Origin: Janthinobacterium rivuli | Lineage (GTDB): Bacteria; Pseudomonadota; Gammaproteobacteria; Burkholderiales; Burkholderiaceae_D | NCBI RefSeq assembly: GCF_029690045.1 | Contig: NZ_CP121464.1 | Coordinates: 1,736,001-1,800,000 of the forward strand | Length of the DNA stretch: 64,000 nt | Direction: 5' to 3' | Shown here: positions 794-39,380 of the stretch, in pieces | Layout: each line of letters opens with the position of its first letter | How positions within the stretch are numbered: the stretch's first letter is position 1 | The notes under the pieces: generated by a model | Seen by the model: the letters and a program-made list of their open reading frames with translations, nothing else | Database searches by the model: none | What the model was told of the DNA's origin: nothing | Made by a program: the position numbers and the translations under genes

Positions 794-823
794 GTGGTGG
801 AGACGGCGGGAATCGAACCCGCG
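794..823. repeat. attL: Left attachment site (attL core), copy of the ssrA 3' end
   Basis: Thirty bases are identical to 38195-38224, the end of the tmRNA gene including its T-arm and the CCA-encoding terminus. Identity stops after gcg at 823. No tmRNA or tRNA body follows, so this is a duplicated integration core and not an RNA gene. Confidence 0.88.
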
Positions 824-876: not shown

Positions 877-1614
877 TTAGAGTCCTGCGTCGCGAATTAG
901 TTTCAGCACAGTTGCAAACGGCTCGTCAGTGTTTCCTTTACCTTTTAGGAAAAACTGTGGTACTTCAGGGTGCAGTGGGAAAGCAAGATCGAAGTTGACT
1001 CTGTCAAATATTTCTTGAGGAGTCACGCGTCCATCATGATGCAAACTTAACAGGTCAAGATATGATCTTTCAAGCTGCTGATATCTTGCATAGCGAGCTT
1101 CTTGGGCAGCCTGCCGATTTATTTTTATTATTTGTTCAGTTTGCCTTGCTCTTGCCTCGTAGTCGTCCAAAACTATATCCCAGTTTGCAAGAAGATATCC
1201 AAATTTATCTAAAGTGTAATAATCCCAAATGTCCTCATCTATTGGATTTATTAATAAATTCTTTCCTTCCGCATCTTTCGGAAATCTATTACCTTTATTT
1301 AGATTGCAAAGACCGCAAATCCAAATGAAATTTTCCCATAACATTGCAGAGTGAGGATATGTGTCTTTTGGCTTAAAATGATCTACTTGTGAAGCCTCGC
1401 TGCCGCCACAAAACATACATCGCTCTCCCTTTCCTGCCAACTGGCCAAGGGTCGCCACCACTGACTCCTCAAACCATTTTGTCTGCCTAGAAGCAGTATA
1501 AATTTTATCTGCCGTTACTGCAGGAGTAGCCGACGCAAGGATAAGTTTTGTTTTACTAATTAGTTTTTTCGAATGCTTATCTTCTAGTAATGGTCGCAAG
1601 GGAAAATTACGCAT
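877..1614 (-). CDS. ptuB: Septu-type HNH endonuclease PtuB
   Basis: A 245-residue protein with a zinc-type HNH core: Cys66-x2-Cys69, Asp78-His79 (VDHFKPK), then Cys100-x2-Cys103 followed by N-x-N-K-G-N. This layout is that of the PtuB/TIGR02646 nuclease family, the effector of the two-gene Septu anti-phage system, which degrades nucleic acid when released or activated by the ATPase PtuA. Its ATG overlaps the stop of the upstream ATPase gene by one base (TAATG), so the pair is translationally coupled. The gene sits between attL and the integrase, a common place for defence cargo. The assignment rests on motifs and gene pairing; a retron-associated nuclease of the same family is the main alternative, but no reverse transcriptase is nearby. 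Confidence 0.82.
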   Translation of the reverse strand: MRNFPLRPLLEDKHSKKLISKTKLILASATPAVTADKIYTASRQTKWFEESVVATLGQLAGKGERCMFCGGSEASQVDHFKPKDTYPHSAMLWENFIWICGLCNLNKGNRFPKDAEGKNLLINPIDEDIWDYYTLDKFGYLLANWDIVLDDYEARARQTEQIIKINRQAAQEARYARYQQLERSYLDLLSLHHDGRVTPQEIFDRVNFDLAFPLHPEVPQFFLKGKGNTDEPFATVLKLIRDAGL

Positions 1615-2948
1615 TATGCTTCAAGCTCCGGCGTAGGCTCCAACGCTATTTCCAGTTGACTTTTGAGATTTGTAAGTTCAATTTCTTCGGATTGTGGCAA
1701 TGTGCCAGTTGCTTTTTTCTTTGACGTAAGTTTTTTCCAGCGTTCAATCTGTTGATTGGCCCAAGATGATCGGGTAGAGTCCAGACCAAAGGCTGTTCCG
1801 AGTAAGGTTTTCTCGGCACGTCCCCAACGTATCTTTTCATGTTCGTCATCTGATAGCCTTCTAGGTTCACGTGAGGTATCAGTCAAGGAAGGCAGGACAA
1901 AAATGCCATTGCTGTCAGCAGCTTGGGCTACAAGCGGACTATGAGTGGTAACTAGGAACTGCATTTTTGGAAAATGCTCTTTCAGCCAATACGGTATATC
2001 TCGCTGCCAAGATGGATGCAAATGTGCTTCGATTTCGTCGATTAATACGACTCCTGGTCGATCTACATAAATCGAGCCATCTGGACGATTTTTGAATAAA
2101 CCATCGTATCCATAGACATCGTATAGGCCATGAACGATATCCAAAATTGTCGCATAGACACTCCGGCATCCATCACTGATATCCCTCATGGGAAGCTCCA
2201 TGCCACGGGAATCTTTCACGAATACATGATCAACAGTGATGCGGTCGATTTTCATTCCGTAAGGAAGCAATCCGTCGCCAAGCAGTTCTTTAACGGACGC
2301 AAGGAGCTTTTCCAAGGCTGGTTGAGAGCTTTCTAATGTCCGAGAGTGATTGGTTTTTAACCAATCTTCACTTTCGCTCAACGCTGCGTCCTCGCGAAAT
2401 AATGTTACAAATCTGCCAACCGGTCCTCGATCTGCGGCATATCGCATTGACTCTGATGAGTTGCCAGAAAGGCGCCGCATAGGCCCGTAACCAGCAGAGA
2501 ACCAACCTGACGCATTGCGATTCCACAGGCCTCGATTTGCAGGCACTCGACTACCCTTGAGATTGCGGTTTTCGATTGGTTTCAGTGAGGCATATGCATT
2601 GGTTTCAGGATTCTCTACTGAGATTCTCACTCCCGCTTCAAACGAGGCTGCGAGGCTACCTCTGCTCCCTTTACTAGTATCCAGAACTTGGTCGCGGTTG
2701 ATGAGGATTGTCGTCTCTGCCTTTTTCTCCCCATGAGATATCCATCCGTGTCCCGGACCAATCAATTGCCTACCATCGTCAGGTCCGAGGAGCGCAAGTG
2801 CGATTGCTTTCAATAACGTCGATTTTCCAGAAGAGTTGCCGCCCAAAAAAACTGTCCACCCCGCATATGAATCGTCATGACGCTTGAAGTCGAAATTGAG
2901 TTTGCCAAACGACCTCACATTTTCTAGTTCGAGTGTTGTGACGTACAT
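1614..2948 (-). CDS. ptuA: Septu-type SMC/OLD-like ATPase PtuA
   Basis: A 444-residue ABC/SMC-like ATPase. Walker A is GGNSSGKST (36-44), the ABC signature region is ISDG (257-260), Walker B is VLIDE (301-305) and the switch histidine lies in TTHSP (334-338). All nucleotide-binding motifs look intact, so ATP binding and dimerisation are expected. The N-terminus follows the family form, with a LxLENVRSFG strand before Walker A. In Septu systems this protein senses infection and controls its partner HNH nuclease, here the next gene. A GGAG ribosome binding site lies about seven bases before the ATG. The coding sequence is visibly less GC-rich than the phage backbone, consistent with horizontal transfer as cargo. 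Confidence 0.82.
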   Translation of the reverse strand: MYVTTLELENVRSFGKLNFDFKRHDDSYAGWTVFLGGNSSGKSTLLKAIALALLGPDDGRQLIGPGHGWISHGEKKAETTILINRDQVLDTSKGSRGSLAASFEAGVRISVENPETNAYASLKPIENRNLKGSRVPANRGLWNRNASGWFSAGYGPMRRLSGNSSESMRYAADRGPVGRFVTLFREDAALSESEDWLKTNHSRTLESSQPALEKLLASVKELLGDGLLPYGMKIDRITVDHVFVKDSRGMELPMRDISDGCRSVYATILDIVHGLYDVYGYDGLFKNRPDGSIYVDRPGVVLIDEIEAHLHPSWQRDIPYWLKEHFPKMQFLVTTHSPLVAQAADSNGIFVLPSLTDTSREPRRLSDDEHEKIRWGRAEKTLLGTAFGLDSTRSSWANQQIERWKKLTSKKKATGTLPQSEEIELTNLKSQLEIALEPTPELEA

Positions 2949-10373: not shown

Positions 10374-11534
10374 GTGACTACAAAAAGAAAATCATATCGA
10401 AGCCGGTGCTTGGAAAGAGACTTGGCTACAGCTAAACGATCGAACCGAAAACGGTTACGCAGGAAGTGGCGAAAGTACAATCCTGATAAGCGAAATCTGA
10501 TTCGTCATAAGGTGAAGCTGAATCAAAACGTGATGGTTTTGGCCGATCATAATGGTAAAACTACGATTTTGGCGCCCGTATCTCTCAACTTTAAAGATGG
10601 GGCAGAGGATACAATTGTATTTTTGGCCACACTTCGTCAAGAAGTGTTGAAGGGGCGGGTAAAAAACATTCTAATTGATCTCACATCGTTAGAAGAGATT
10701 TCTCCTGCTGCCGCAGTGGTATTGCTCGCTGAGCTGACACGCTGCATCTATTACGCGGGCAAGATTAAGAAAATCATTGGGAATTATCCGAAGACAGATC
10801 GTGCTGCGCAAGTACTTGTTGATATCGGTTTTTTCCGTGCATTTGGTGCGAAAACACCAAAATGTACCCTTGAGAATCATGGTCGAGTGTACATTAAGAC
10901 AGTGTTCGGCAACCGGAGCGATGGGAGGTATACTTCAGGTTTGCTAAAGCAGTTCGAGGAGGTTTGTGGGCTTCATCCTTTGGCGTCGAAGCGTCTCTAC
11001 GGCGCACTAATTGAGTGCATGGACAACGTGAAAGGCCATGCATATCCCGAGTTTCCTGGCGTAAGGCCAGACCTTTCGGGCGAGTGGTGGCTTTGCGGAT
11101 TTGCCGATCCTGTACGTAGGCAAATTGCGATCGTTTTTTATGATCTGGGTGAGGGCATTCCGACGACTATCAAACGCAAGAGATCGGTGCGAATTAGGAG
11201 CTACTTGAATTTTACCGATTCGCGCATACTTAAGAGAGCAGTTGAGGTAGGCTTAAGTAGCAAAGATAGTCATCGAAGAGGTACGGGGTTACCATCTTTG
11301 AGGCAGTTTGTTGATTTTGCGCCAAGTGGTTTCCTTCGAGTTATGTCTGGACGCGGTGACATTAAATACACGCGGACATCGAAAAAAATTACTTCTCGTG
11401 ACCTGAAGACTCCACTTCAAGGTTCGCTAATCGTCTGGACTATACAAGAGTCCCAACTGGAGAACGGATCGAGTGACGTCAGCGATTTGGATTTCAATAC
11501 CGATCCTGTGCAACTAAGGTTTCCATATGACTAA
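10374..11534 (+). CDS. STAS-domain / histidine-kinase-like ATPase fusion, phage cargo
   Basis: A 386-residue protein starting at a GTG. After a very basic N-terminus (1-45) comes a STAS-like domain (about 60-160) with the core strand ILIDLTSLEEISPAAAVVLL. A GHKL/HATPase domain follows: N-box Glu214-x3-Asn218 (ALIECMDNVKGHAY), the nucleotide-binding YDLGEGIP around Asp257, and a glycine-rich GTGLPSLRQF lid at 303. It thus has an anti-sigma-antagonist-like module fused to an anti-sigma-like kinase or ATPase, but no receiver, transmembrane sensor or phosphoacceptor His box. It overlaps the DUF4325 gene by eight bases and heads a three-gene operon between repressor and late genes, a typical place for lysogeny-expressed cargo. 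An anti-phage or host-regulatory role is inference. Confidence 0.75.
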   Translation: MTTKRKSYRSRCLERDLATAKRSNRKRLRRKWRKYNPDKRNLIRHKVKLNQNVMVLADHNGKTTILAPVSLNFKDGAEDTIVFLATLRQEVLKGRVKNILIDLTSLEEISPAAAVVLLAELTRCIYYAGKIKKIIGNYPKTDRAAQVLVDIGFFRAFGAKTPKCTLENHGRVYIKTVFGNRSDGRYTSGLLKQFEEVCGLHPLASKRLYGALIECMDNVKGHAYPEFPGVRPDLSGEWWLCGFADPVRRQIAIVFYDLGEGIPTTIKRKRSVRIRSYLNFTDSRILKRAVEVGLSSKDSHRRGTGLPSLRQFVDFAPSGFLRVMSGRGDIKYTRTSKKITSRDLKTPLQGSLIVWTIQESQLENGSSDVSDLDFNTDPVQLRFPYD

Positions 11535-11850
11535 ATTATTTCAGCCCTATATTTTTATAAAATCTTTTAGCAAGTTTCCTGGTGGCAGGTACATTAAACA
11601 TGGACCTTACTCTGGTGAACTTTTTCGAGAGGAGGTCTTGCGACCGCTTCTAATGGCACATGATGTAGTATCGATAGACCTTACAGGAGCAAGAGGCTTT
11701 GGATCTTCGTTTCTGGACGAGTCTTTTGGTGAGGTTGGTCTGCAGTTGGGACAGAAGGAAGCTGAGCGACGCCTCATCATTAAGTGTGATGATGACCCTT
11801 CAATAGTTGATCTTATATGGGAAAAGATCGAGATTGCCAATTCCAAATAA
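11527..11850 (+). CDS. DUF4325 (STAS-like) protein
   Basis: A 107-residue protein with the DUF4325 layout: a strand-rich start with GGRYIKHGPYSGELFREEVL, a central VVSIDLTGARGFGSSFLDESF and a final helix. DUF4325 domains are STAS-like and are often found with HATPase proteins, as here. The start lies within the last codons of the ATPase gene (ATGACTAA), implying coupled synthesis and probably a stable complex or a partner-switch pair. No function is known for the family. Confidence 0.72.
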   Translation: MTKLFQPYIFIKSFSKFPGGRYIKHGPYSGELFREEVLRPLLMAHDVVSIDLTGARGFGSSFLDESFGEVGLQLGQKEAERRLIIKCDDDPSIVDLIWEKIEIANSK

Positions 11851-11868
11851 AAAATAGACTGGCGGATT

Positions 11869-12315
11869 ATGGATTTGTCACTAAGTTTGATTGATGTTTT
11901 GAAGATGGGTATACCTGCGATCCTGTCATTCACATTCGGCCGATATTTGTCATCGATTACGAACAGAGAGGCCAGGTTAAAAGATGCACGGCAAAAACTA
12001 GTTGAACTCATTAGGAAAATTACCGCCGATTCAATCCTCTATCATTCGACAGTATGTGATCCTAAGAGCGCCGTTAAGGAGGCCGCATTGCTAGACCACT
12101 TGCTGCATCAGCTTCGTACGGATCTACAGAATTTGAAGGTTCTTCTTAAAATTGATAGCAAAGAAAAATATGCAGTGCGGGAACTTCATGACCTGTTTGC
12201 TGCTGTTACTCGCTACCCGTTCCAACCGGCAGAACGGACTGATGAAATAGAAACACATAGGTTATCTCAAATATCACGTGCATGCGAGATACTTGTACAA
12301 AAAGTCAATCGGTGA
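11869..12315 (+). CDS. Membrane-anchored helical protein of the STAS-HATPase operon
   Basis: A 148-residue protein with one N-terminal hydrophobic segment (about 8-27, VLKMGIPAILSFTFGRYL) and a cytoplasmic, mostly helical remainder rich in charged residues. I recognise no family. Eighteen bases separate it from the DUF4325 gene on the same strand. It could anchor the system at the membrane or be its effector; both are inference. About 180 gene-free bases follow before gene D on the opposite strand, with an imperfect inverted repeat near 12393-12422 that may end the operon. Confidence 0.65.
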   Translation: MDLSLSLIDVLKMGIPAILSFTFGRYLSSITNREARLKDARQKLVELIRKITADSILYHSTVCDPKSAVKEAALLDHLLHQLRTDLQNLKVLLKIDSKEKYAVRELHDLFAAVTRYPFQPAERTDEIETHRLSQISRACEILVQKVNR

Positions 12316-24273: not shown

Positions 24274-25068
24274 TTAAATCGCGCGCAGGGGTAATTTAAT
24301 AGTTGGGGATATTATTCTTTTGTAGTGGATATTATTTAAAGTCCATTCTGATTCAATTCGATCAATAAATATAGTCCAAAAATCCAATTCCTTCGGTGTG
24401 AAGGTATTTGGTACGCGTAATATCGGGACGAAAAGGGTGATTTGATTATCGTTTGTTTCGGAAAGAATTGATACCGGGCCACTGCCTTTGCAGTACGAAA
24501 TATGGTGTTCGAGTCTGGTCTGTGTAATATGTCTGAAGTCTGGAGAGGAAATTCCACTTAATGGCGATATGACGTAGAGAATTCCGGCGTAAGGATGCAT
24601 GTCTTCGATACTGAGCCAATGAAATACAGCGGATAGTAAAACGTAGATGATTGCAAGGATTGCAAGCTGCCCCATGGGGTGCCCTGATTTTTCGAATATA
24701 GTAATGGCAAAAACAAGCGGAAGTAAAATAACGCCAAGTAATGAATTAATAGCTATTGCAAGATATCTTTGTTTTTTTGCAATTTTATCCAGTAAGCCAT
24801 CATCTCCTTTAGAAAATTTTTTTGCCAATATGGAAAATATTAATAATACTGCTGATGATATTATAAAAATTTGAAAAGTTACAGAATTTGAAGTTTTGTA
24901 TAAATTTTCTATTTCCTCATTTAGCTGTGGGGTTGTTGGGCTATTTTGTATTTCATTGAATAGAATTGTTGCTATGGTGAATATGGCAAAAGCTTTACCC
25001 GATGTGGGTAAGATCCATTCTTTTAAGAAGAGGGAAAGCCACTCTTTAATCGTATATTTTTTAAGCAT
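24274..25068 (-). CDS. Low-GC membrane protein inserted in the tail operon (cargo/moron)
   Basis: A 264-residue protein with four likely membrane segments (about 22-38, 62-82, 102-124 and 132-152) and a soluble C-terminal domain of about 100 residues with strands (QITLFVPILRVPNTF). It matches no family I recognise. The gene and its flanks (24203-25255) are strongly AT-rich against the very GC-rich tail genes on both sides. It sits between gpV and gpS, the place of the Z/fun gene in P2, a known moron position. It may alter the host envelope or exclude superinfecting phages, which is inference from topology and location. It is not required for tail assembly in related phages. Confidence 0.75.
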   Translation of the reverse strand: MLKKYTIKEWLSLFLKEWILPTSGKAFAIFTIATILFNEIQNSPTTPQLNEEIENLYKTSNSVTFQIFIISSAVLLIFSILAKKFSKGDDGLLDKIAKKQRYLAIAINSLLGVILLPLVFAITIFEKSGHPMGQLAILAIIYVLLSAVFHWLSIEDMHPYAGILYVISPLSGISSPDFRHITQTRLEHHISYCKGSGPVSILSETNDNQITLFVPILRVPNTFTPKELDFWTIFIDRIESEWTLNNIHYKRIISPTIKLPLRAI

Positions 25069-33023: not shown

Positions 33024-34084
33024 GCAAAGCACGACACATGCGCGCGCGCGGCCAGCAGGCCGAGGGCGCGCCATCAACAGCGGCCACGGCGCCGGCCGCC
33101 GCCGGCATCGAGGCTTTTTCCTTCGGCGACCCGACGCCCGTGCTCGAGCACGCCGACATTCTCGATTGCTTCGAATGCTGGAAGAACGGCCACTGGTATG
33201 AGCCGCCCGTCAACCTGGCCGGCCTGGCCAAGTCGTTCAACGCGGGCGTGCACCACAGCAGCGCCATCCACTTCAAGGCCAACGTGCTAGCGTCCACCCT
33301 GATTCCCAGCAAGTACCTGTCGCGCGACGCGTTCAAGCGCATGGCGCTCGACTTCCTGACGTTCGGCAATGCCTACCTGGAAGACCGGCCCAGCCGCAGC
33401 GGCAAGGCGCTGGCATACCAGCACGCCCTGGCCAAGTACATGCGGCGCGGCGTCGATCTGGACACGTATTTTTTCGTCAACGGCTACCAGGCCGTGCACC
33501 AGTTCGACAAGGGCCGTGTGTTTCACCTGATGGAGCCGGACGTGAATCAGGAGCTGTACGGCGTGCCGCAGTACCTGAGCGCGCTGCAGTCGGCCTGGCT
33601 CAATGAGGCGGCCACCTTGTTCCGCCGTAAGTACTACAAGAACGGCTCGCATGCGGGCTTCGTGTTCTACATGACGGACGCCGCCGCCAACACCCAGGAC
33701 GTGGACAACCTGCGCCAGGCCATGCGCGACAGTAAAGGGCCGGGCAACTTCCGCAATCTGTTCATGTACGCGCCGAACGGCAAGAAGGACGGCATCCAGA
33801 TTCTGCCGGTATCGGACGTCGCTGCGAAGGACGAGTTTTTCAACATCAAGAGCGTCACGCGCGACGACCAGCTGGCCGCGCACCGCGTGCCGCCGCAGCT
33901 CATGGGCATCCTGCCGAACAATGCCGGCGGCTTCGGCGCCGTGGAGCCGGCCGCGCGTGTCTTCGCGCGCAATGAGCTGGTGCCGCTGCAGGCGCAGTTC
34001 GAAGCGATCAACGAGTGGGCCGGCGTGGAAGTGGTGAGGTTTGCCCCGTATGACCTGGCGACAGGCGGGGAGGGCGCGCAATGA
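33020..34084 (+). CDS. Q: Portal protein gpQ
   Basis: A 354-residue P2 portal homologue. The TTG at 33020 overlaps the gpP stop as TTGA, giving MSKARHMRARGQQ; an ATG six codons later is the alternative. Family marks include AFSFGDPTPVLEHADILDC, LDFLTFGNAYLE and GFGAVEPAARVFARNEL. It forms the vertex ring for packaging and tail joining. Confidence 0.95.
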   Translation: MSKARHMRARGQQAEGAPSTAATAPAAAGIEAFSFGDPTPVLEHADILDCFECWKNGHWYEPPVNLAGLAKSFNAGVHHSSAIHFKANVLASTLIPSKYLSRDAFKRMALDFLTFGNAYLEDRPSRSGKALAYQHALAKYMRRGVDLDTYFFVNGYQAVHQFDKGRVFHLMEPDVNQELYGVPQYLSALQSAWLNEAATLFRRKYYKNGSHAGFVFYMTDAAANTQDVDNLRQAMRDSKGPGNFRNLFMYAPNGKKDGIQILPVSDVAAKDEFFNIKSVTRDDQLAAHRVPPQLMGILPNNAGGFGAVEPAARVFARNELVPLQAQFEAINEWAGVEVVRFAPYDLATGGEGAQ

Positions 34085-34296
34085 GCGACCATATCGACAA
34101 CACGGACAAGATCATCTTCGCCGAAGTTGCGCGCGGCCTGGCCGCGGTGCGCAGCCGGCCCGCCCTGGTGGCGCATGGCTGCTGCCACTACTGCGACGAG
34201 GCGCTGGCGCCCGGGCTGCTGTTCTGTGGCGTGGACTGCCGCGATGATTACGAGAAGGAGCAGGCGGCCAAGGCCCGCGCCGGCCGCCCAGGATGA
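34081..34296 (+). CDS. Small zinc-ribbon/treble-clef protein after the portal gene
   Basis: Seventy-one residues with a four-cysteine zinc site, Cys35-x2-Cys38 ... Cys49-x3-Cys53 (CHYCDE and FCGVDCRDDYEKE), like DksA/TraR-related or DUF2116 zinc proteins often found after Q in P2-like prophages. The ATG overlaps the portal stop (ATGA). It may modulate RNA polymerase; this is only a family-based guess. Confidence 0.78.
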   Translation: MSDHIDNTDKIIFAEVARGLAAVRSRPALVAHGCCHYCDEALAPGLLFCGVDCRDDYEKEQAAKARAGRPG

Positions 34297-34369
34297 CCGC
34301 CACGCCGCGCTAGCCAGCAGGGCAGGGCCGAGACAGTCCAGCCGCGCCGAAGCACCCCAGCCACCGCAC

Positions 34370-34393
34370 AAGCCGCCCACGAGGCGGCTTTTT
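34370..34393 (+). terminator. Rho-independent terminator of the P-Q operon
   Basis: The stem AAGCCGCC / GGCGGCTT with a five-base loop is followed by TTT. It stands about 75 bases after the last phage head gene and before the cargo block. Confidence 0.82.
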
Positions 34394-34539
34394 CACGTCC
34401 CGACGATTGATGTTGCGCCAGAAGCAAGAAAAAAGCCCATTTCGGCCCGGCGCGCGCAGTTGTCCCCCCTCCACACCTGCCCGCTATATAGGGCTCTTTT
34501 GACTCAAATGTGCGCCATGGCCGAAGGCGCATGAGGACT

Positions 34540-34558
34540 GGCGTGGCGGGGCGAAGAG
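34540..34558 (+). other. cos: Candidate cos (packaging end) site
   Basis: GGCGTGGCGGGGCGAAGAG resembles the 19-base cohesive ends of P2 and 186 as I remember them (GGCG-A/T-GGCGGGG start). It lies next to the portal/terminase end, where cos belongs in this phage group. The match is limited to about 12 bases and comes from memory. Confidence 0.45.
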
Positions 34559-34781
34559 GGGGCATGCGATTTGACGCATTTTGACGCACTTTGAGTAGCT
34601 ACACGTTGTTCGAAACCCTTCTATTCCCATTGGCAATCTTGCATTAAATGTGTGCAAACTTGACAATTTCATGCTAGGAGGTAATAGTGGTAAAAAGTAG
34701 AGGCAACTTTTAACGCATGCTTTGAGATAGAGCCCTATTTTTAAATGGCGTGACTGAGGATTCTGATTTCAAGGACTGACG

Positions 34782-35801
34782 ATGAAAAAAACCGTTTTTG
34801 TGATAATGCCGTTTGTTCAAGCAAATAATAGGGACCAAGATGAGCTTACTAAGTTTTTCACCGATCATATAAAAGATCCTATCGAAAATAGTAGAGATCT
34901 AGACGGGAAATATGTTGTAAATCGTTCGTCTGATGATTTTTTAATATTGGATAATATACTTCTTGATTTGGCGAATGCAGATCTTGTAATTTGTGATCTT
35001 TCAGGGGTTACCGCTAACGCAAATGTTATCTTCGAACTTGGGATACGTTTGTCAGTATCTCATAAACCCGTGATATTGATACGCGAGAACCTTGATTCTA
35101 ATAAATCGATGTTTGATGTTCATGGTCTTCATGCTTTTCATTACAAAATGAGTAGTACTAAAGATTTGGAACGATTTCTTATTAAGAAGATTTCAGAATA
35201 TGACGACGATAGTTCAAAGTACAGTTCTCCGGTATTGAAAATACTCAATCATGAGGCCGCGTTTTGGATGCAGTTGCCTATACGGAAGGCAAGCGCATTT
35301 CTTGGCGGGATATCAAGTGCCGCTGACGCAAATTTACGCGCATTTACGAAGGCAATTAATATTTTCTTGCGAAAGAATGAAGTTCATGATTTTTTGGTTG
35401 ATGACCCCGCTACGGTATATAAGCCAATAGAGAGTTTATCTGAAAATGTCAAGGCATTGAACTGTCTGGAGTCATTTTCGTACAACATAAGTTCTATTCC
35501 ATCACTTGATTCATATCTGTCCTCTGTATATTTGCTAGGTCTTATTGAGGAATCAATTGAGAGGAAATTTAGAACGTACGCAATGCATTATTCTTTGCAT
35601 TTCAATAAAGGTAATTCTGGATTTTTCTGGGATCGCAGGTTTGATGAAATTCATGCTTATGCAAAAGAAACATTGATTTTGATGAATTTGTGTCGTACGA
35701 CAATTAAAATATTAAGATCAAAGCAGGGTAGCGAAGAGCGAAATGAATATATAAAATCATTTGATGGAATAATTAACTCTAGTGAATTTGAGAATATGTA
35801 A
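34782..35801 (+). CDS. TIR / deoxyribosyltransferase-like protein, phage cargo
   Basis: A 339-residue protein whose first 120 residues form a Rossmann-like nucleoside-deoxyribosyltransferase/TIR (STIR-type) domain: strand FVIMPF (6-11), ADLVICDLSG (66-75), then NVIFELGIR (81-89) with Glu85 in the place of the catalytic glutamate of this superfamily, and the strand HKPVILI. The remaining 220 residues are helical and match nothing I recognise. Relatives in defence systems hydrolyse NAD+ or make nucleotide signals. The stop overlaps the start of the next gene (TAATG), so both are made together. The gene is very AT-rich, has its own ribosome binding site and lies after the phage terminator near attR, a classic defence-cargo site. 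NADase activity is inference. Confidence 0.72.
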   Translation: MKKTVFVIMPFVQANNRDQDELTKFFTDHIKDPIENSRDLDGKYVVNRSSDDFLILDNILLDLANADLVICDLSGVTANANVIFELGIRLSVSHKPVILIRENLDSNKSMFDVHGLHAFHYKMSSTKDLERFLIKKISEYDDDSSKYSSPVLKILNHEAAFWMQLPIRKASAFLGGISSAADANLRAFTKAINIFLRKNEVHDFLVDDPATVYKPIESLSENVKALNCLESFSYNISSIPSLDSYLSSVYLLGLIEESIERKFRTYAMHYSLHFNKGNSGFFWDRRFDEIHAYAKETLILMNLCRTTIKILRSKQGSEERNEYIKSFDGIINSSEFENM

Positions 35802-36502
35802 TGGCTAATTATATAAATAAAACAATCCTTTCTGAGTCTTATGCACATATCAATGTGGTAGAGCTTACTGCTGAGGAAAAGATTGAATTTGAAATGGATA
35901 TTAAGACATACCAAGCGCCTCGTGCAAAACGTATGCTTGGGATTGATATCGAGCCAGTAGTGAGAACGGAGGATGGCTCACTAAAGGTTTATTTGACGGT
36001 TTATGGATCTTTATCTGACGCACTCGGCGACTTTGATGATTTTAGAGATGCTCTCCAAAACCTTTATATGTCCTCAAAAATGGTCGCAGATGCTTGTAAT
36101 CTTGAAAGCTTATTTTTGTCGGGAGCATCAAAGAAACAATTGATTCGGGCTGAAGCAAGAACCGGGGTGGTGAAAGCTACTAGAGAGTTGTTTGATCTTT
36201 CTACTTACTTGGCGGAGTCTCGTGACAAGTATTCTCATAAGAAGTTGAGTTTATTAATAGCTGATTTGGATAGGAAGGTAACTACGTTAAATAAAAATCT
36301 TACCTTTGCAAAAGATAGATTGATGGTATGGCGGGAAATTCATCCATTGGCAAAAAAGATTCCTGCGAACATTCATAATTTGCAACAAAGTCCTGATGAG
36401 GAATTTCAAAAAACGAATAAAGCCAATGTTCTAGAAACTTCAAATAGAATTTTTGGCTATATAAAAAGCTCTCTGGCAGATGTTGAAGCTGAGGAACTTT
36501 GA
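35801..36502 (+). CDS. Unknown partner of the TIR-like protein (233 aa)
   Basis: A hydrophilic 233-residue protein with no family I recognise. Residues 1-95 look alpha/beta (VVELTAEEKIEFEMDIKTY, SLKVYLTVYGSLSDALGDF) and 95-233 are mostly helical, with a probable coiled coil near 150-180 (LIADLDRKVTTLNKNLTFAK). There is no signal peptide or membrane segment. Its ATG overlaps the stop of the TIR-like gene by one base, and composition matches that gene, so the two were probably acquired as a unit. It may be a sensor, inhibitor or second effector, none of which is shown by sequence. Confidence 0.68.
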   Translation: MANYINKTILSESYAHINVVELTAEEKIEFEMDIKTYQAPRAKRMLGIDIEPVVRTEDGSLKVYLTVYGSLSDALGDFDDFRDALQNLYMSSKMVADACNLESLFLSGASKKQLIRAEARTGVVKATRELFDLSTYLAESRDKYSHKKLSLLIADLDRKVTTLNKNLTFAKDRLMVWREIHPLAKKIPANIHNLQQSPDEEFQKTNKANVLETSNRIFGYIKSSLADVEAEEL

Positions 36503-36810
36503 TTCATTATCGGGCGGTTTTTTAATTGCCTGGAGGAAGCGAGCAGGGCGCCCTCGCACTCTGTGTGAGATTCGAAGAGCTGGGGCTACCCGCCCCGAAT
36601 CCTTAACCGCTGTTGCTTGCACATGCATGTCCTACTGATGAACTGTGTGGATGCACAGCATTGACTTGAGAGCGTGATGAGGGGGGTAAGTATTCCAGCG
36701 GGGTGTCCTGCTTGTCAGCGTTGATGATGCCGCCTACAATCGGTTTGTTGGTGTGAGCCCATTATTATATATAGTAGTGGGGATACGCTGAAGGAGAGGG
36801 GAAACCCTTC
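36503..36810. other. Intergenic region carrying the first palindromic module
   Basis: The stretch 36528-36604 is a diverged copy of 37249-37334: both read GCCTGG-GGAA-CGAGCAGG-CGCC then GTGTGAGATTCGAAG-GCTGGG and a GC hairpin closed by GATTCG / CGAATC. A T-run precedes the module and may terminate the TIR operon. The remainder up to 36810 shows no gene and presumably holds the promoter of the small ORFs that follow. Confidence 0.55.
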
Positions 36811-36894
36811 ATGGAAATTAACTATATTTCAAGGTTCTTCGGATTCCGTAGTGACCGGGAGAAGACGAATTTTAGGAGGCAATATGTCAGTTAG
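36811..36894 (+). CDS. Possible 27-residue leader peptide
   Basis: The ATG at 36811 follows GGAGAGG and reads MEINYISRFFGFRSDREKTN..., ending at a TAG that lies within the first codons of the next ORF (ATGTCAGTTAG). This overlap would couple translation of the 73-aa gene. It is too short to be certain. Confidence 0.35.
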   Translation: MEINYISRFFGFRSDREKTNFRRQYVS

Positions 36895-37105
36895 TATACT
36901 TGATATGGATAAAGAACTTAAGATTGCGGTAGGCCGTATAGTCTTGCTTGAGGCTGCGCTTGGTACGTTAATTAAACACCAATTTTCTAAAGAGCAGATT
37001 GGTGAGCTGGTAACTCACCTTGAGATCGAGAACGCTCGCTTGCTTCAGATTGGGCTTCCAAACCTGGACGGTAGTATTCTTAAGTCCCTGAAAACAAATT
37101 TATGA
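36884..37105 (+). CDS. Small helical protein of unknown function (73 aa)
   Basis: The ATG at 36884 has an ideal AGGAGG seven bases upstream, so it is preferred to a GTG at 36851. The product is amphipathic and helical (KELKIAVGRIVLLEAALGTL, EQIGELVTHLEIENARLL). It stands between two palindromic modules (36528-36604 and 37200-37334) as an orphan cassette-like gene. I do not recognise it. Confidence 0.6.
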   Translation: MSVSILDMDKELKIAVGRIVLLEAALGTLIKHQFSKEQIGELVTHLEIENARLLQIGLPNLDGSILKSLKTNL

Positions 37106-37594
37106 TAGTGCACGGCCAGGTCTGGTTGTTGTCGGTAAATTTGTAGGTACGTCCCAGAAATAATGGCTGTAAGCTGCATTTTAAATTGGTGTTCGCATTA
37201 CACCGCTTCCGCTAGGAAATAAAGAAACCGCCTTCGGGAGGTTTTTTTGCCTGGCGGAATCGAGCAGGACGCCTTCGCGCCCGCGTGTGAGATTCGAAGG
37301 GCTGGGCCTACCGGCCCGGCCCGCCTCGAATCCTCCAACTGCTGCCGCTGCGCGGCAGCTCCGCACGCCGCAGGCACGCGTTCGTGATTCGAATTAGCTT
37401 TTAGACTGAGCCAGCTTTCACAGCACCAATGCCTCAGTCCGTGTCTGAAAGCCGGACCTGAGCCTCGCGTATATCCGTTAATTTTTTCATCCAGTGTTGC
37501 GTTGTCAAGAAGTATTGATATTTCACAATGGCACCCCATTTAGTTGTCTATGCCCATGCAGTTCGCATAGGACCTTATAGGAGAGAAGAAAAAA
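37106..37594. other. Intergenic region with second palindromic module
   Basis: It contains GCATTACACCGCTTCCG near 37195, AAATAAA, a terminator stem AAACC-GCC / GG-AGGTTT with a T7 tail at 37226-37248, then the module 37249-37334 with a strong hairpin GGGC-TGGGCC-TACC-GGCCC, and the stem GCTGCCG / CGGCAGC near 37342-37360. No gene is supported; two minus-strand ORFs here are translations of these repeats. The last 60 bases carry the ribosome binding site GGAGAG of the next gene. Confidence 0.55.
37226..37248 (+). terminator. Rho-independent terminator after the 73-aa gene
   Basis: A short GC stem (AAACCGCC / GGAGGTTT with a TTCG-type loop) is followed by seven T residues. Confidence 0.7.
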
Positions 37595-37879
37595 ATGGCA
37601 AGGCACCAGGTCAAATCTTTCAAGGTAGCTATCACCCCTTCTGGAAAATCGGTTCATGTTGAAATCGAGACAGATCTCAAAAAACCGTATAAATTTGAAC
37701 TCACTTGTGACACAAACTATCCGACAGTGCAGAATATTGAGAATAAGCTGAAAGAGGCCTTAAAACACTGTGTTGATACATATGAAAAGGTCGAAGTCAG
37801 CTATTTCAAAGATCGTTTCTTCGTAACGATCAATGTGACCGATTTCATTAACACTCGGTTTTCCGGAAAAGCAGTATAG
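37595..37879 (+). CDS. Small protein of unknown function (94 aa) next to attR
   Basis: The ATG follows GGAGAGAAGAAAAA. The product alternates strands and one helix (VAITPSGKSVHVEIETDLKK, IENKLKEALKHCVDT, VSYFKDRFFVTINVTDF), which suggests a small alpha-beta domain, perhaps dimeric or nucleic-acid binding. No family is recognised. It is AT-richer than the host, and a 67-base palindrome directly follows it. Confidence 0.62.
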   Translation: MARHQVKSFKVAITPSGKSVHVEIETDLKKPYKFELTCDTNYPTVQNIENKLKEALKHCVDTYEKVEVSYFKDRFFVTINVTDFINTRFSGKAV

Positions 37880-38194
37880 GTATTTAGGCCCGCAAATGCC
37901 GGCTGTGTGCATCACACCGCCTCCGTACGTAAATAAAAGAAGAGGCACCCATCGGGTGGCTCTTCTTTTATTTACGTACGGAGGCGAGCAGCGCTGCGTT
38001 CATAGAGGCGGTACGCTACTGCGGTATCGCTGCATCGCAGAGGTCTGATTAGGGTGTCGGTGCTAGATCAGAGTATGAGGCGAGCGCACAAAAAAAGCTG
38101 TCATTTTGTTGTCATTCCTAGGCTAAAACAGCCCAAAAACAACCCAAATAATGACAGCCTTCTTCTTGCTAACTACTTGATTCTAAACAATTCA
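37880..38194. other. Right end of the prophage: palindrome and attachment-arm region
   Basis: It contains GCATCACACCGCCTCCG (third module, like 37195), the long palindrome at 37919-37985 and, nearer the attachment site, the inverted pair GCTGTCATT / AATGACAGC (about 38095-38160) with an extra TGTCATT between, which could be integrase arm sites. No gene is supported; an ORF crossing into ssrA (38054-38260) is an artefact. Confidence 0.5.
37919..37985. terminator. 67-base near-perfect palindrome, bidirectional terminator-like
   Basis: Arms of 32 bases (37919-37950 and 37954-37985) pair with a single mismatch around a three-base loop. Inside are TAAATAAAAGAAGAG and its complement, so both strands read a GC stem and T-rich tail. 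It mirrors the palindrome at 740-791 beside the left attachment site. Confidence 0.75.
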
Positions 38195-38224
38195 GTGGTG
38201 GAGACGGCGGGAATCGAACCCGCG
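38195..38224. repeat. attR: Right attachment site (attR core) within the ssrA 3' end
   Basis: Identical to 794-823 over 30 bases. Here the core is continuous with a full tmRNA gene, so the prophage lies on the 3' side and left the RNA gene whole. Confidence 0.88.
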
Positions 38225-38556
38225 TCCGCAAGCACTCTACAGACAGTTCTACATACTTAGCACTATCATTTAATTTAACTCAGCCAGCACGGATGTGCAC
38301 GTTATGGGCAAGCGAGTTACCTATTATTTAGTCGGACGCTAAGTAACCCAGCATACGACGAGTCCCTGTAAATGACTCTAGAGCTTTTGACGGCCCACCC
38401 CAGGGACGAGGTGTTCTAGAGCTAACAGCGATTAAGCTGCCAGTGCGTACGAGTTATCGTTTGCAGTTAAGTTTTTTCAGGTTGTATTTACGAGGTAGCC
38501 CGCCCTCGGTATGCCCTGCGCTGCTTTGCAACCCACGTCGAAACCAGGTCGTCCCC
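38196..38556 (-). ncRNA. ssrA: Transfer-messenger RNA
   Basis: The minus strand starts GGGGACGACCTGGTTTCGACGTGGG and ends in a T-arm and ...CTCCACCA, the standard tmRNA ends. The tag frame reads ANDNSYALAA-stop at 38464-38432, a normal beta-proteobacterial degradation tag. The RNA rescues stalled ribosomes with SmpB. A TACAAT -10 box lies at 38573-38568, 11 bases before the 5' end. It serves as the prophage integration target. Confidence 0.96.
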
Positions 38557-38567
38557 ACAGAACCTTC

Positions 38568-38573
38568 ATTGTA
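38568..38573 (-). promoter_or_regulatory. -10 box of the ssrA promoter
   Basis: TACAAT on the minus strand, 11 bases before the tmRNA start. The -35 is weak. Confidence 0.55.
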
Positions 38574-38620
38574 GCGCAATCTGCCCACTCTTGCATGATG
38601 CATTCGCGCCATTGACGTAA

Positions 38621-38647
38621 GGGGTCTGACCCGTCGGGTCAGACCCC
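38621..38647. repeat. GGGGTC-type intergenic palindrome, copy 1
   Basis: Twelve-base arms GGGGTCTGACCC / GGGTCAGACCCC with a GTC loop, between ssrA and gph. A sister element lies at 47292-47318. Confidence 0.75.
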
Positions 38648-38675
38648 AGCTTTCTGCTGCGAAAAGGGATGTGCC

Positions 38676-39380
38676 TCAAGCCGCCAGTTGCCGCTCCTGT
38701 GCCGCCTTCACTACCGCGCTGACCAGCGCGAGCAAGGCCTGCGGCGTCTCCAGTAAATGGTCGGCGTTCCAGTGCTGTGGCTCGACGGGGCCGCAGTAGC
38801 CCCAGGCGCAGGCCACCGTGCGCATGCCGGCGGCGCGGCCGGCCTGGATGTCGCGCAGGTCGTCGCCCACGTACCAGCAGGCTTCCGGCGCCAGGTCCAG
38901 GCGGCGCGCCGCTTCCAGCAGGGGGGCTGGGTGCGGTTTCGGGTGCGGCATGGTGTCGCCCGAGATCACGCAGCCGGCCGCGCCCAGGCCGATCTGGCCG
39001 ACCAGCGGGTCGGTGAAGCGGGCGGCCTTGTTGGTGACCACGCCCCAGGCCAGGCCCAGGGCGGTCAAGCCTTCCAGCAGGGCGGGGATGCCGTCGAATA
39101 AGCGGCTTTCCACGGCCAGGGCCGCTTCGTAATTGTTCAGGAAGCCGTCTTTCAGGGCTTCGTAGCCGCTTTCGCCCGGGGCAATGCCATACGACGCGCC
39201 GATCATGCCGCGCGCGCCGGCCGAGGCCGTGGGGCGCAGGATGTCGTACGGCGTCGGCGCCAGGCCGGCACGTGCGCGCAGCAGGTTGATGGCCGCTGCC
39301 AGGTCGGGCGCGGTGTCGGCCAGGGTGCCGTCGAGGTCGAACAGGATGGCGCGCGGGGCTGGCAGATGGTCAGTGATCAT
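38676..39380 (-). CDS. gph: Phosphoglycolate phosphatase (HAD family)
   Basis: A 234-residue HAD hydrolase with motif I FDLDGTLADT (catalytic Asp pair), motif II in VVTNKAA, the lysine of PHPKPHP and motif IV YVGDDLRD. It removes phosphate from 2-phosphoglycolate formed during DNA repair or oxygenation. The ATG at 39380 is chosen over a TTG three codons upstream. It follows ubiG on the same strand by 68 bases, a common betaproteobacterial pairing. Confidence 0.9.
   Translation of the reverse strand: MITDHLPAPRAILFDLDGTLADTAPDLAAAINLLRARAGLAPTPYDILRPTASAGARGMIGASYGIAPGESGYEALKDGFLNNYEAALAVESRLFDGIPALLEGLTALGLAWGVVTNKAARFTDPLVGQIGLGAAGCVISGDTMPHPKPHPAPLLEAARRLDLAPEACWYVGDDLRDIQAGRAAGMRTVACAWGYCGPVEPQHWNADHLLETPQALLALVSAVVKAAQERQLAA

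Follow-up and report, generated by a model that had tools for sequence, protein, structure and literature searches.

Among described proteins, those closest to the locus considered here belong to the DrHyd/nucleoside 2-deoxyribosyltransferase (NDT) branch of the TIR-DrHyd-SLOG (TDS) clade (PMC9503650) and to Swarozyc, a DUF4062 TIR-like NADase whose C-terminal auxiliary domain is, in the excerpts available from a preprint, triggered by the phage portal, each Swarozyc being a single protein (PMC13174449). The closest described location is a defence hotspot of P2-like coliphages between the portal gene gpQ and gpA; according to excerpts of that source, the tested system found at the hotspot of one isolated P2-like phage includes a TIR protein and transmembrane partners (PMC9122126). 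Here we describe two adjacent genes, gene 1 (P0001) and gene 2 (P0002), from a stretch of 64,000 nucleotides of Janthinobacterium rivuli (assembly GCF_029690045.1, contig NZ_CP121464.1, positions 1,736,001 to 1,800,000), referred to below as the window. On balance we favour the view that this pair is a mobile superinfection-defence operon on a P2-like prophage, with gene 1 encoding an NAD+ (nicotinamide adenine dinucleotide)/nucleotide N-glycosidase effector and gene 2 a sensor or regulator.

The strongest support for a role in defence comes from related prophages that share the flanks of the pair and carry other genes between them, known defence systems included. A DNA search with positions 34000-38300 gave matches in 20 of 21 genomes (the window's own and 20 relatives). 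The sample drawn for the variable spot comprises eleven stretches (L157-L167) from nine genomes, one stretch (L165) coming from the window's own genome; L159 and L160 share one genome and L157 and L166 another, and the cargo of L157 looks like that of L159. Both borders of the spot are present in L157-L160 (three genomes), with unrelated genes of guanine-cytosine (GC) content 0.32-0.57 between them, while the other seven stretches have all or part of the left border, the right border not lying in the stretch, and in five of them a dispersed repeat occurs further on. In L166 the counterpart of window positions 36709-37418 follows about 120 bases after the left border, as if the insertion of the pair were missing, and the pair itself has no blastn match at E 1e-10 in any of the eleven stretches.

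Ten cargo proteins from seven of these stretches were submitted to PADLOC. IetS (E 0) and IetA (E 1.1e-104) lie between both borders of L158. Drt4 (E 1.3e-204) was identified in L164, where the left flank is shared and the right flank is not in the stretch, and the candidate system PDC-S31 (E 1.1e-40) in L163, with the left flank only; a TIR-effector fragment (E 1e-34) in L161 stands about 2.2 kb from the border and is less securely part of the spot. An earlier note, made from the letters of the window, had regarded the pair as cargo of a P2-like prophage, and the sibling prophages with IetAS, DRT4 and a candidate system at this place, together with a Septu system in the same prophage as the pair, bear this out. 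Because the siblings carry known anti-virus systems at the same position the pair is probably a rare defence system, and the portal-to-att region of the related prophages looks like a defence hotspot.

The two AT-rich open reading frames, both on the + strand and overlapping by one base (TAATG), are present as the earlier note had read them, as are the motifs FVIMPF (residues 6-11), ADLVICDLSG (66-75) and NVIFELGIR (81-89, containing Glu85) of gene 1. Their GC contents are 0.35 for gene 1 and 0.37 for gene 2, and those of two large upstream genes 0.62-0.64. The same note had proposed a TIR/NDT fold with an active-site glutamate, and the predicted model agrees: residues 1-155 adopt a Rossmann-type fold that can be aligned to solved NDT and TIR structures, with a strand at 68-72 and a helix at 80-92, placing Glu85 on the helix after strand 3. 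Asp72, Asn79, Asn81, Glu85, Arg89, Phe111 and Asp112 are the putative active-site residues. At the level of sequence the match to the nucleoside 2-deoxyribosyltransferase family proper (PF05014) reaches 16.3 bits, under the Pfam gathering cut-off of 28.8, and PDB sequence searches gave nothing significant.

Relatives of the gene 1 domain were located at 153 places in viral contigs, of which 80 were kept; 77/80 contained an open reading frame found by phmmer, the motif being present also in the loci without one (L110, L111, L138), and 45 were aligned. Six rows were removed from the alignment by hand, three as truncated or odd (L124, L140, L143) and three for lack of the strict motif (L071, L074, L134). 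The latter three retain Glu85, Asp72, Arg89, Phe111, Asp112 and Tyr121 and miss Leu86 or Gly87, so that these two positions are not invariant. Conservation at N79, N81, V82, E85, L86, M9 and P10 is in part built in by the peptide patterns used for searching; among the 17 relatives found without a pattern the glutamate is present in 17/17, and Arg89 is missing in some (e.g. L012, L045, L049). On these sequences, the domain relatives are a common (pro)phage cargo family. In the excerpted text of the TDS survey, the DrHyd proteins reported from viruses are solely of the ARC type (PMC9503650). Those in viral contigs are often about 290 residues long. For residues 149-339 of gene 1, its C-terminal part, a single relative is known, that of Massilia kyonggiensis, and none was found in viral contigs or in 100 other genomes around M. 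kyonggiensis.

It is in M. kyonggiensis (locus L015) that the pair recurs, with the gene 1 homologue directly upstream of gene 2, in the same order and with the identical one-base overlap. Gene 1 is 68% identical between the two loci and gene 2 62% over the alignment (67% in the best segment). At the DNA level the two loci become similar from the start codon of gene 1 onward, and their flanks show no match; since the pair with its overlap recurs amid unrelated flanks, it moves as a unit. Nucleotide identities at the three codon positions (0.74/0.83/0.42 for gene 1, 0.67/0.77/0.37 for gene 2) reveal selection on the protein, and both genes are therefore real and not chance reading frames; no ratio of nonsynonymous to synonymous divergence is given because synonymous divergence is saturated. 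The overlap makes it probable that the two genes are translated together.

The pair is nevertheless rare. Full-length gene 1 was found in 2/392 genomes of the family, the second being the M. kyonggiensis locus by its coordinates (G689 and L015 are the same locus and add no evidence to each other), and in 1/274 genomes of the class, which is the window's own. Gene 2 was found in 1/245 genomes of the family and 1/369 of the class, again the own genome, these samples not having brought up M. kyonggiensis. Searches with gene 1 by tblastn of phage and plasmid records, viral-contig scans with gene 1 alone and with A3, A6 and A7, and tblastn of P0006 in phages were unproductive, and no gene 2 relative is present at any of the 80 viral loci retained for the gene 1 domain. 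The number of genomes with the adjacent pair, which the earlier note had proposed to count, thus comes to two loci, both with the overlap kept, and no third copy was detected in the genomes, phage and plasmid records and viral contigs searched. As judged from these sequences, the pair is rare and mobile, and the wider family of gene 2 occurs mostly without gene 1.

The model of gene 2 is confident (predicted local distance difference test, pLDDT, 89.6; predicted template modelling score, pTM, 0.85). The predicted order beta-alpha-beta-beta-alpha-beta over residues ~9-120 is that of a ferredoxin-like domain, and a helical bundle makes up the C-terminal part. Among solved structures none is conspicuous as a relative, the top Foldseek rows being designed ferredoxin-like proteins (E 6.7e-3). 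In Pfam gene 2 has no match. It does match PHROG 31894, to which no function is assigned there, at E 1.4e-5 over residues 1-125, and plasmid members of the family match the same entry at E 1.6e-15 to 2.8e-53. A comparison with PADLOC, also proposed earlier, gave a result for one of the two proteins: the gene 1 N-terminal domain is profile-similar to PDLC00733, and gene 2 has no convincing match in PADLOC 2.0.0. Family loci were recovered from 7/72,556 plasmid records, from genome contigs (13 loci) and from viral contigs (12 loci); tblastn of phage records and a viral-contig scan with gene 2 alone were unproductive. A near-identity search of 5,426 complete E. coli genomes identified 12 with a copy close to L036, one with a copy close to L037 and none with a copy like L033. 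Some of the 31 gene 2 loci are near-copies and one record is present twice (L003 = L018), which leaves 26 distinct sequences besides the window.

In 21/21 aligned members Arg41, Gly59, Ser60, Glu102, Glu118, Arg120, Gly122 and Asp172 are invariant, and as these lie outside the search patterns they suggest a binding or catalytic site; conservation at M1, A2, Y4, I9, Y14, H16 and partly P19 is in part built in by those patterns. Set against the rest of PHROG 31894, gene 2 of the pair keeps these invariant residues, and six positions kept in 19/19 other members (Pro19, Phe44, Phe45, Tyr78, Asp91, Gly125) are changed in both the window and the M. kyonggiensis copies. In a 27-row tree these two form one deep branch (support 100/100, length 2.21), with a warning from the build that long branches may attract. 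The separate branch and the six changed positions are as expected if gene 2 adapted to its partner.

The invariant polar residues of gene 2 (Arg41, Ser60, Glu102, Glu118, Arg120 and Asp172) could also be those of a receiver. In such a scheme, which would follow the logic of Thoeris, infection would prompt gene 1 to convert NAD+ into a nucleotide messenger, which gene 2 would bind as the effector, and the existence of gene 2 relatives without gene 1 is what would be seen for a protein with an activity of its own. However, gene 2 has no match to SIR2, SLOG or macro domains, its sole nuclease match is weak (REase_II, E 0.033), no fold relative in the PDB stands out, and the stand-alone relatives would have no source of messenger. 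We consider this scheme quite improbable.

The neighbours of the other gene 2 relatives are diverse and include a dGTPase gene on a Klebsiella plasmid, DUF262 and HEPN genes in an E. coli prophage, a DUF5677 gene (L016) and P2-like tail genes. On small E. coli plasmids and phage contigs (L005, L006, L031, L033, L040) a conserved open reading frame of 106-108 residues lies upstream of the gene 2 relative; its L031 copy has no Pfam match, and it is possibly another partner of gene 2 relatives. In L025 the relative is flanked on one side by a P4-type integrase and on the other by a primase-like gene (names by eye), as if it belonged to a P4-like satellite.

We infer defence as the function of the pair, NAD+ as the substrate, gene 2 as the sensor and abortion of infection as the outcome, along with the partnership of the two proteins and its trigger. 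In the operon model favoured above, the N-terminal domain of gene 1 would by means of Glu85 cleave an N-glycosidic bond, most likely in NAD+ or else in another nucleotide, and the helical C-terminal part would control this domain. Gene 2, as a specialised branch of a phage and plasmid cargo family, would keep gene 1 silent. Infection by another phage would then either lift this restraint or cause gene 2 to activate gene 1, upon which gene 1 would cleave NAD+ or a nucleotide, the infection would abort and the cell would stop supporting the invader.

Several observations weigh against this model. The earlier note had held that a partner occurring mostly without gene 1 would speak against a two-gene system, and for the broad family this is the case, since in the neighbourhoods of the 31 gene 2 loci a gene 1 homologue (E 0.01) is found in L015 only; yet both close copies, those of the window and of L015, have gene 1. 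With no more than two copies of the pair recovered by the searches, the term “conserved operon” rests on n=2. Gene 1 alone matches no Pfam family at E 0.01, and the model of its C-terminal part is poor (pLDDT 48-76 per block over residues 161-290). The nearest folds are those of nucleoside and nucleotide enzymes as much as of TIR proteins, which leaves NAD+ a candidate substrate. An attack on the nucleotide pool is an alternative, though we regard it as unlikely: gene 1 would hydrolyse a (deoxy)nucleotide 5'-monophosphate, perhaps modified and phage-made (MilB and DNPH1 act on monophosphates), gene 2 would be an accessory or second enzyme, and defence would proceed without depletion of NAD+.

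Location is a further point of this kind. Five of the ten cargo proteins have no PADLOC match and one related stretch (L167) carries at the spot a pair that looks by eye like HicAB, so that the place does not prove defence. Such a pair favours an explanation in which genes 1 and 2 stabilise the prophage as a toxin-antitoxin or addiction pair, or are unconnected pieces of cargo that lie side by side by chance, gene 2 then having a function of its own; so do the gene 2 relatives that lack gene 1 and are located in P2-like prophages, on small plasmids or near integrases. The identical overlap and order at two loci with unrelated flanks argue for a linked pair instead, as does the deep separate branch, with six shared changed positions, formed by the gene 2 copies adjacent to gene 1, and of the explanations considered here we rate this the least probable.

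A more far-reaching version of the operon model, which we offer as a speculation and think rather doubtful, is that gene 2 represents an undescribed phage-sensing family of ferredoxin-like proteins which share an invariant polar site. In P2-like prophages, satellites and small plasmids its members would work without a partner, as anti-phage genes or in superinfection exclusion. In the lineage of the pair, such a protein would have been joined to an NDT-type effector that cleaves NAD or nucleotides, and the result would be a two-gene defence unlike Thoeris, CBASS (cyclic oligonucleotide-based anti-phage signalling systems), retrons and Swarozyc. If the operon model as such is true, two-component control would be added to what is known of TIR/NDT-type effectors, an unnamed prophage and plasmid family of Gammaproteobacteria, Burkholderiales included, would gain its first possible function, and the portal-to-att region of such prophages would become a place to mine for further defence systems.

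The coordinates of the pair and its surroundings are collected in Table 1. As a 30-bp repeat bounds the prophage, the pair sits inside it between the portal-side genes and attR, which, together with its position after a terminator-like hairpin, is the arrangement that the earlier note had described. The hairpin has a folding energy of -14.2 kcal/mol (z -3.2; 3/200 shuffles as good) and is not among the sites reported by the pattern scan; promoter-type sites are no commoner than chance (6 found, 6.2 expected). The prophage is P2-like as judged by its portal gene, which by tblastn matches 333/50,697 phage records (18 bear the name Peduovirus), with most of the best rows (59-63% identity) annotated as portal; names of other prophage genes were assigned by eye.

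Table 1. Positions of the gene pair and of associated features in the window.
Feature	Position	Strand	Remarks
Gene 1 (P0001)	34782..35801	+	339 aa; predicted N-terminal NDT/TIR-type (TIR-DrHyd-SLOG clade) domain, residues 1-155; helical C-terminal part
Gene 2 (P0002)	35801..36502	+	233 aa; predicted ferredoxin-like domain and C-terminal helical bundle; PHROG 31894 family
Glu85 codon of gene 1	35034..35036	+	Putative catalytic residue; role by analogy with excerpts of PMC9503650 and PMC13174449
Terminator-like hairpin, then T-run	34370..34390	+	3' of portal-side genes, upstream of the pair
Possible promoter TTGACA-17-AATAGT	34660..34688	+	Pattern scan
Left border of variable spot	34004..34595	+	Common, whole or in part, to related prophages (80-92% identical)
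Right border of variable spot	38040..38300	+	att region and tmRNA (transfer-messenger RNA) end; parts shared with four related stretches
attL	794..823	.	30-bp exact repeat
attR	38195..38224	.	30-bp exact repeat, tmRNA 3' end
tmRNA gene, integration site	38196..38556	-	attR at its 3' end
PtuA of Septu, same prophage	1614..2948	-	Context, outside the pair; PADLOC E 6e-131
PtuB of the same Septu system	877..1614	-	Context; PADLOC E 1.3e-27; HNH domain

Within the same prophage, Septu (877-2948) is located between attL and the integrase. A further stretch of AT-rich cargo at 10374-12315 contains three genes, for a familyless protein of 386 residues, a DUF4325 STAS-like protein (E 8e-12) and a protein of 148 residues that looks membrane-bound by eye; it has no PADLOC match and is possibly another undescribed system. 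An AT-rich gene at 24274-25068, amid the tail genes, encodes a membrane-like protein of 264 residues with a weak HlyIII match (E 0.008) and looks like another cargo spot. The variable spot of the related prophages also holds several unnamed genes, one of which, in L162, encodes what by eye is a ParA-like ATPase and has two small genes next to it. A dispersed repeat of ~280 bp, frequent in genomes of the genus, is present in the window as two related copies, at 36510-36612 and 37191-37470; the repeat often adjoins cargo of the spot and might be a substrate for cargo exchange.

The earlier note had judged the pair to be neither Thoeris nor CBASS, and as far as the tested features go this stands and extends to retrons. 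Gene 2 lacks a ThsA-type receiver (SIR2-SLOG, macro or other known effector) in Pfam, PADLOC, PHROGs and NCBIfam, and matches neither a CD-NTase nor a cyclase. No SMODS match was found in the genome at E 0.01, in a search that was positive in 4/14 control genomes, cyclases not having been searched genome-wide. The sole RVT_1 match in the genome (E 0.01) is ~232 kb away from the pair, and Rfam at the gathering score gives tmRNA only within 34000-38700. The likeness to CBASS and Pycsar lies in their TIR effectors (PADLOC PDLC00733, PF10137), to which the gene 1 N-terminal domain is similar by profile. As in the gpQ-gpA hotspot, the pair stands beside the portal gene of a P2-like prophage; in the excerpts of that source the hotspot is one of E. 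coli P2-like phages, whereas here the spot ends at an att site in the tmRNA gene (PMC9122126). From the gene order, with gpA named by eye, the circular form of the phage would bring the pair, the att site, Septu and int all within the gpQ-gpA region.

Nothing describing such a pair was found in the literature covered, which left most subscription journals outside and in which gene 2 has no searchable name. The effector is of a known type, and its partner and the combination of the two were not found described. The predicted Rossmannoid domain of gene 1 is like that of the DrHyd/NDT branch of the TDS clade, from whose descriptions, in the excerpted text, gene 1 differs by its helical C-terminal part of ~180 residues and by the partner (PMC9503650). 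The Pfam listing for gene 1, taken to E 10, does not include DUF4062, and neither do the matches of any of the 47 rows at E 0.01. Swarozyc nevertheless resembles gene 1, according to excerpts of the preprint, in combining a TIR/NDT-like N-terminal domain and a catalytic glutamate with a C-terminal auxiliary part (PMC13174449); by analogy it would be a close precedent for the effector-regulator logic proposed here, in one protein where the Janthinobacterium locus has a second gene.
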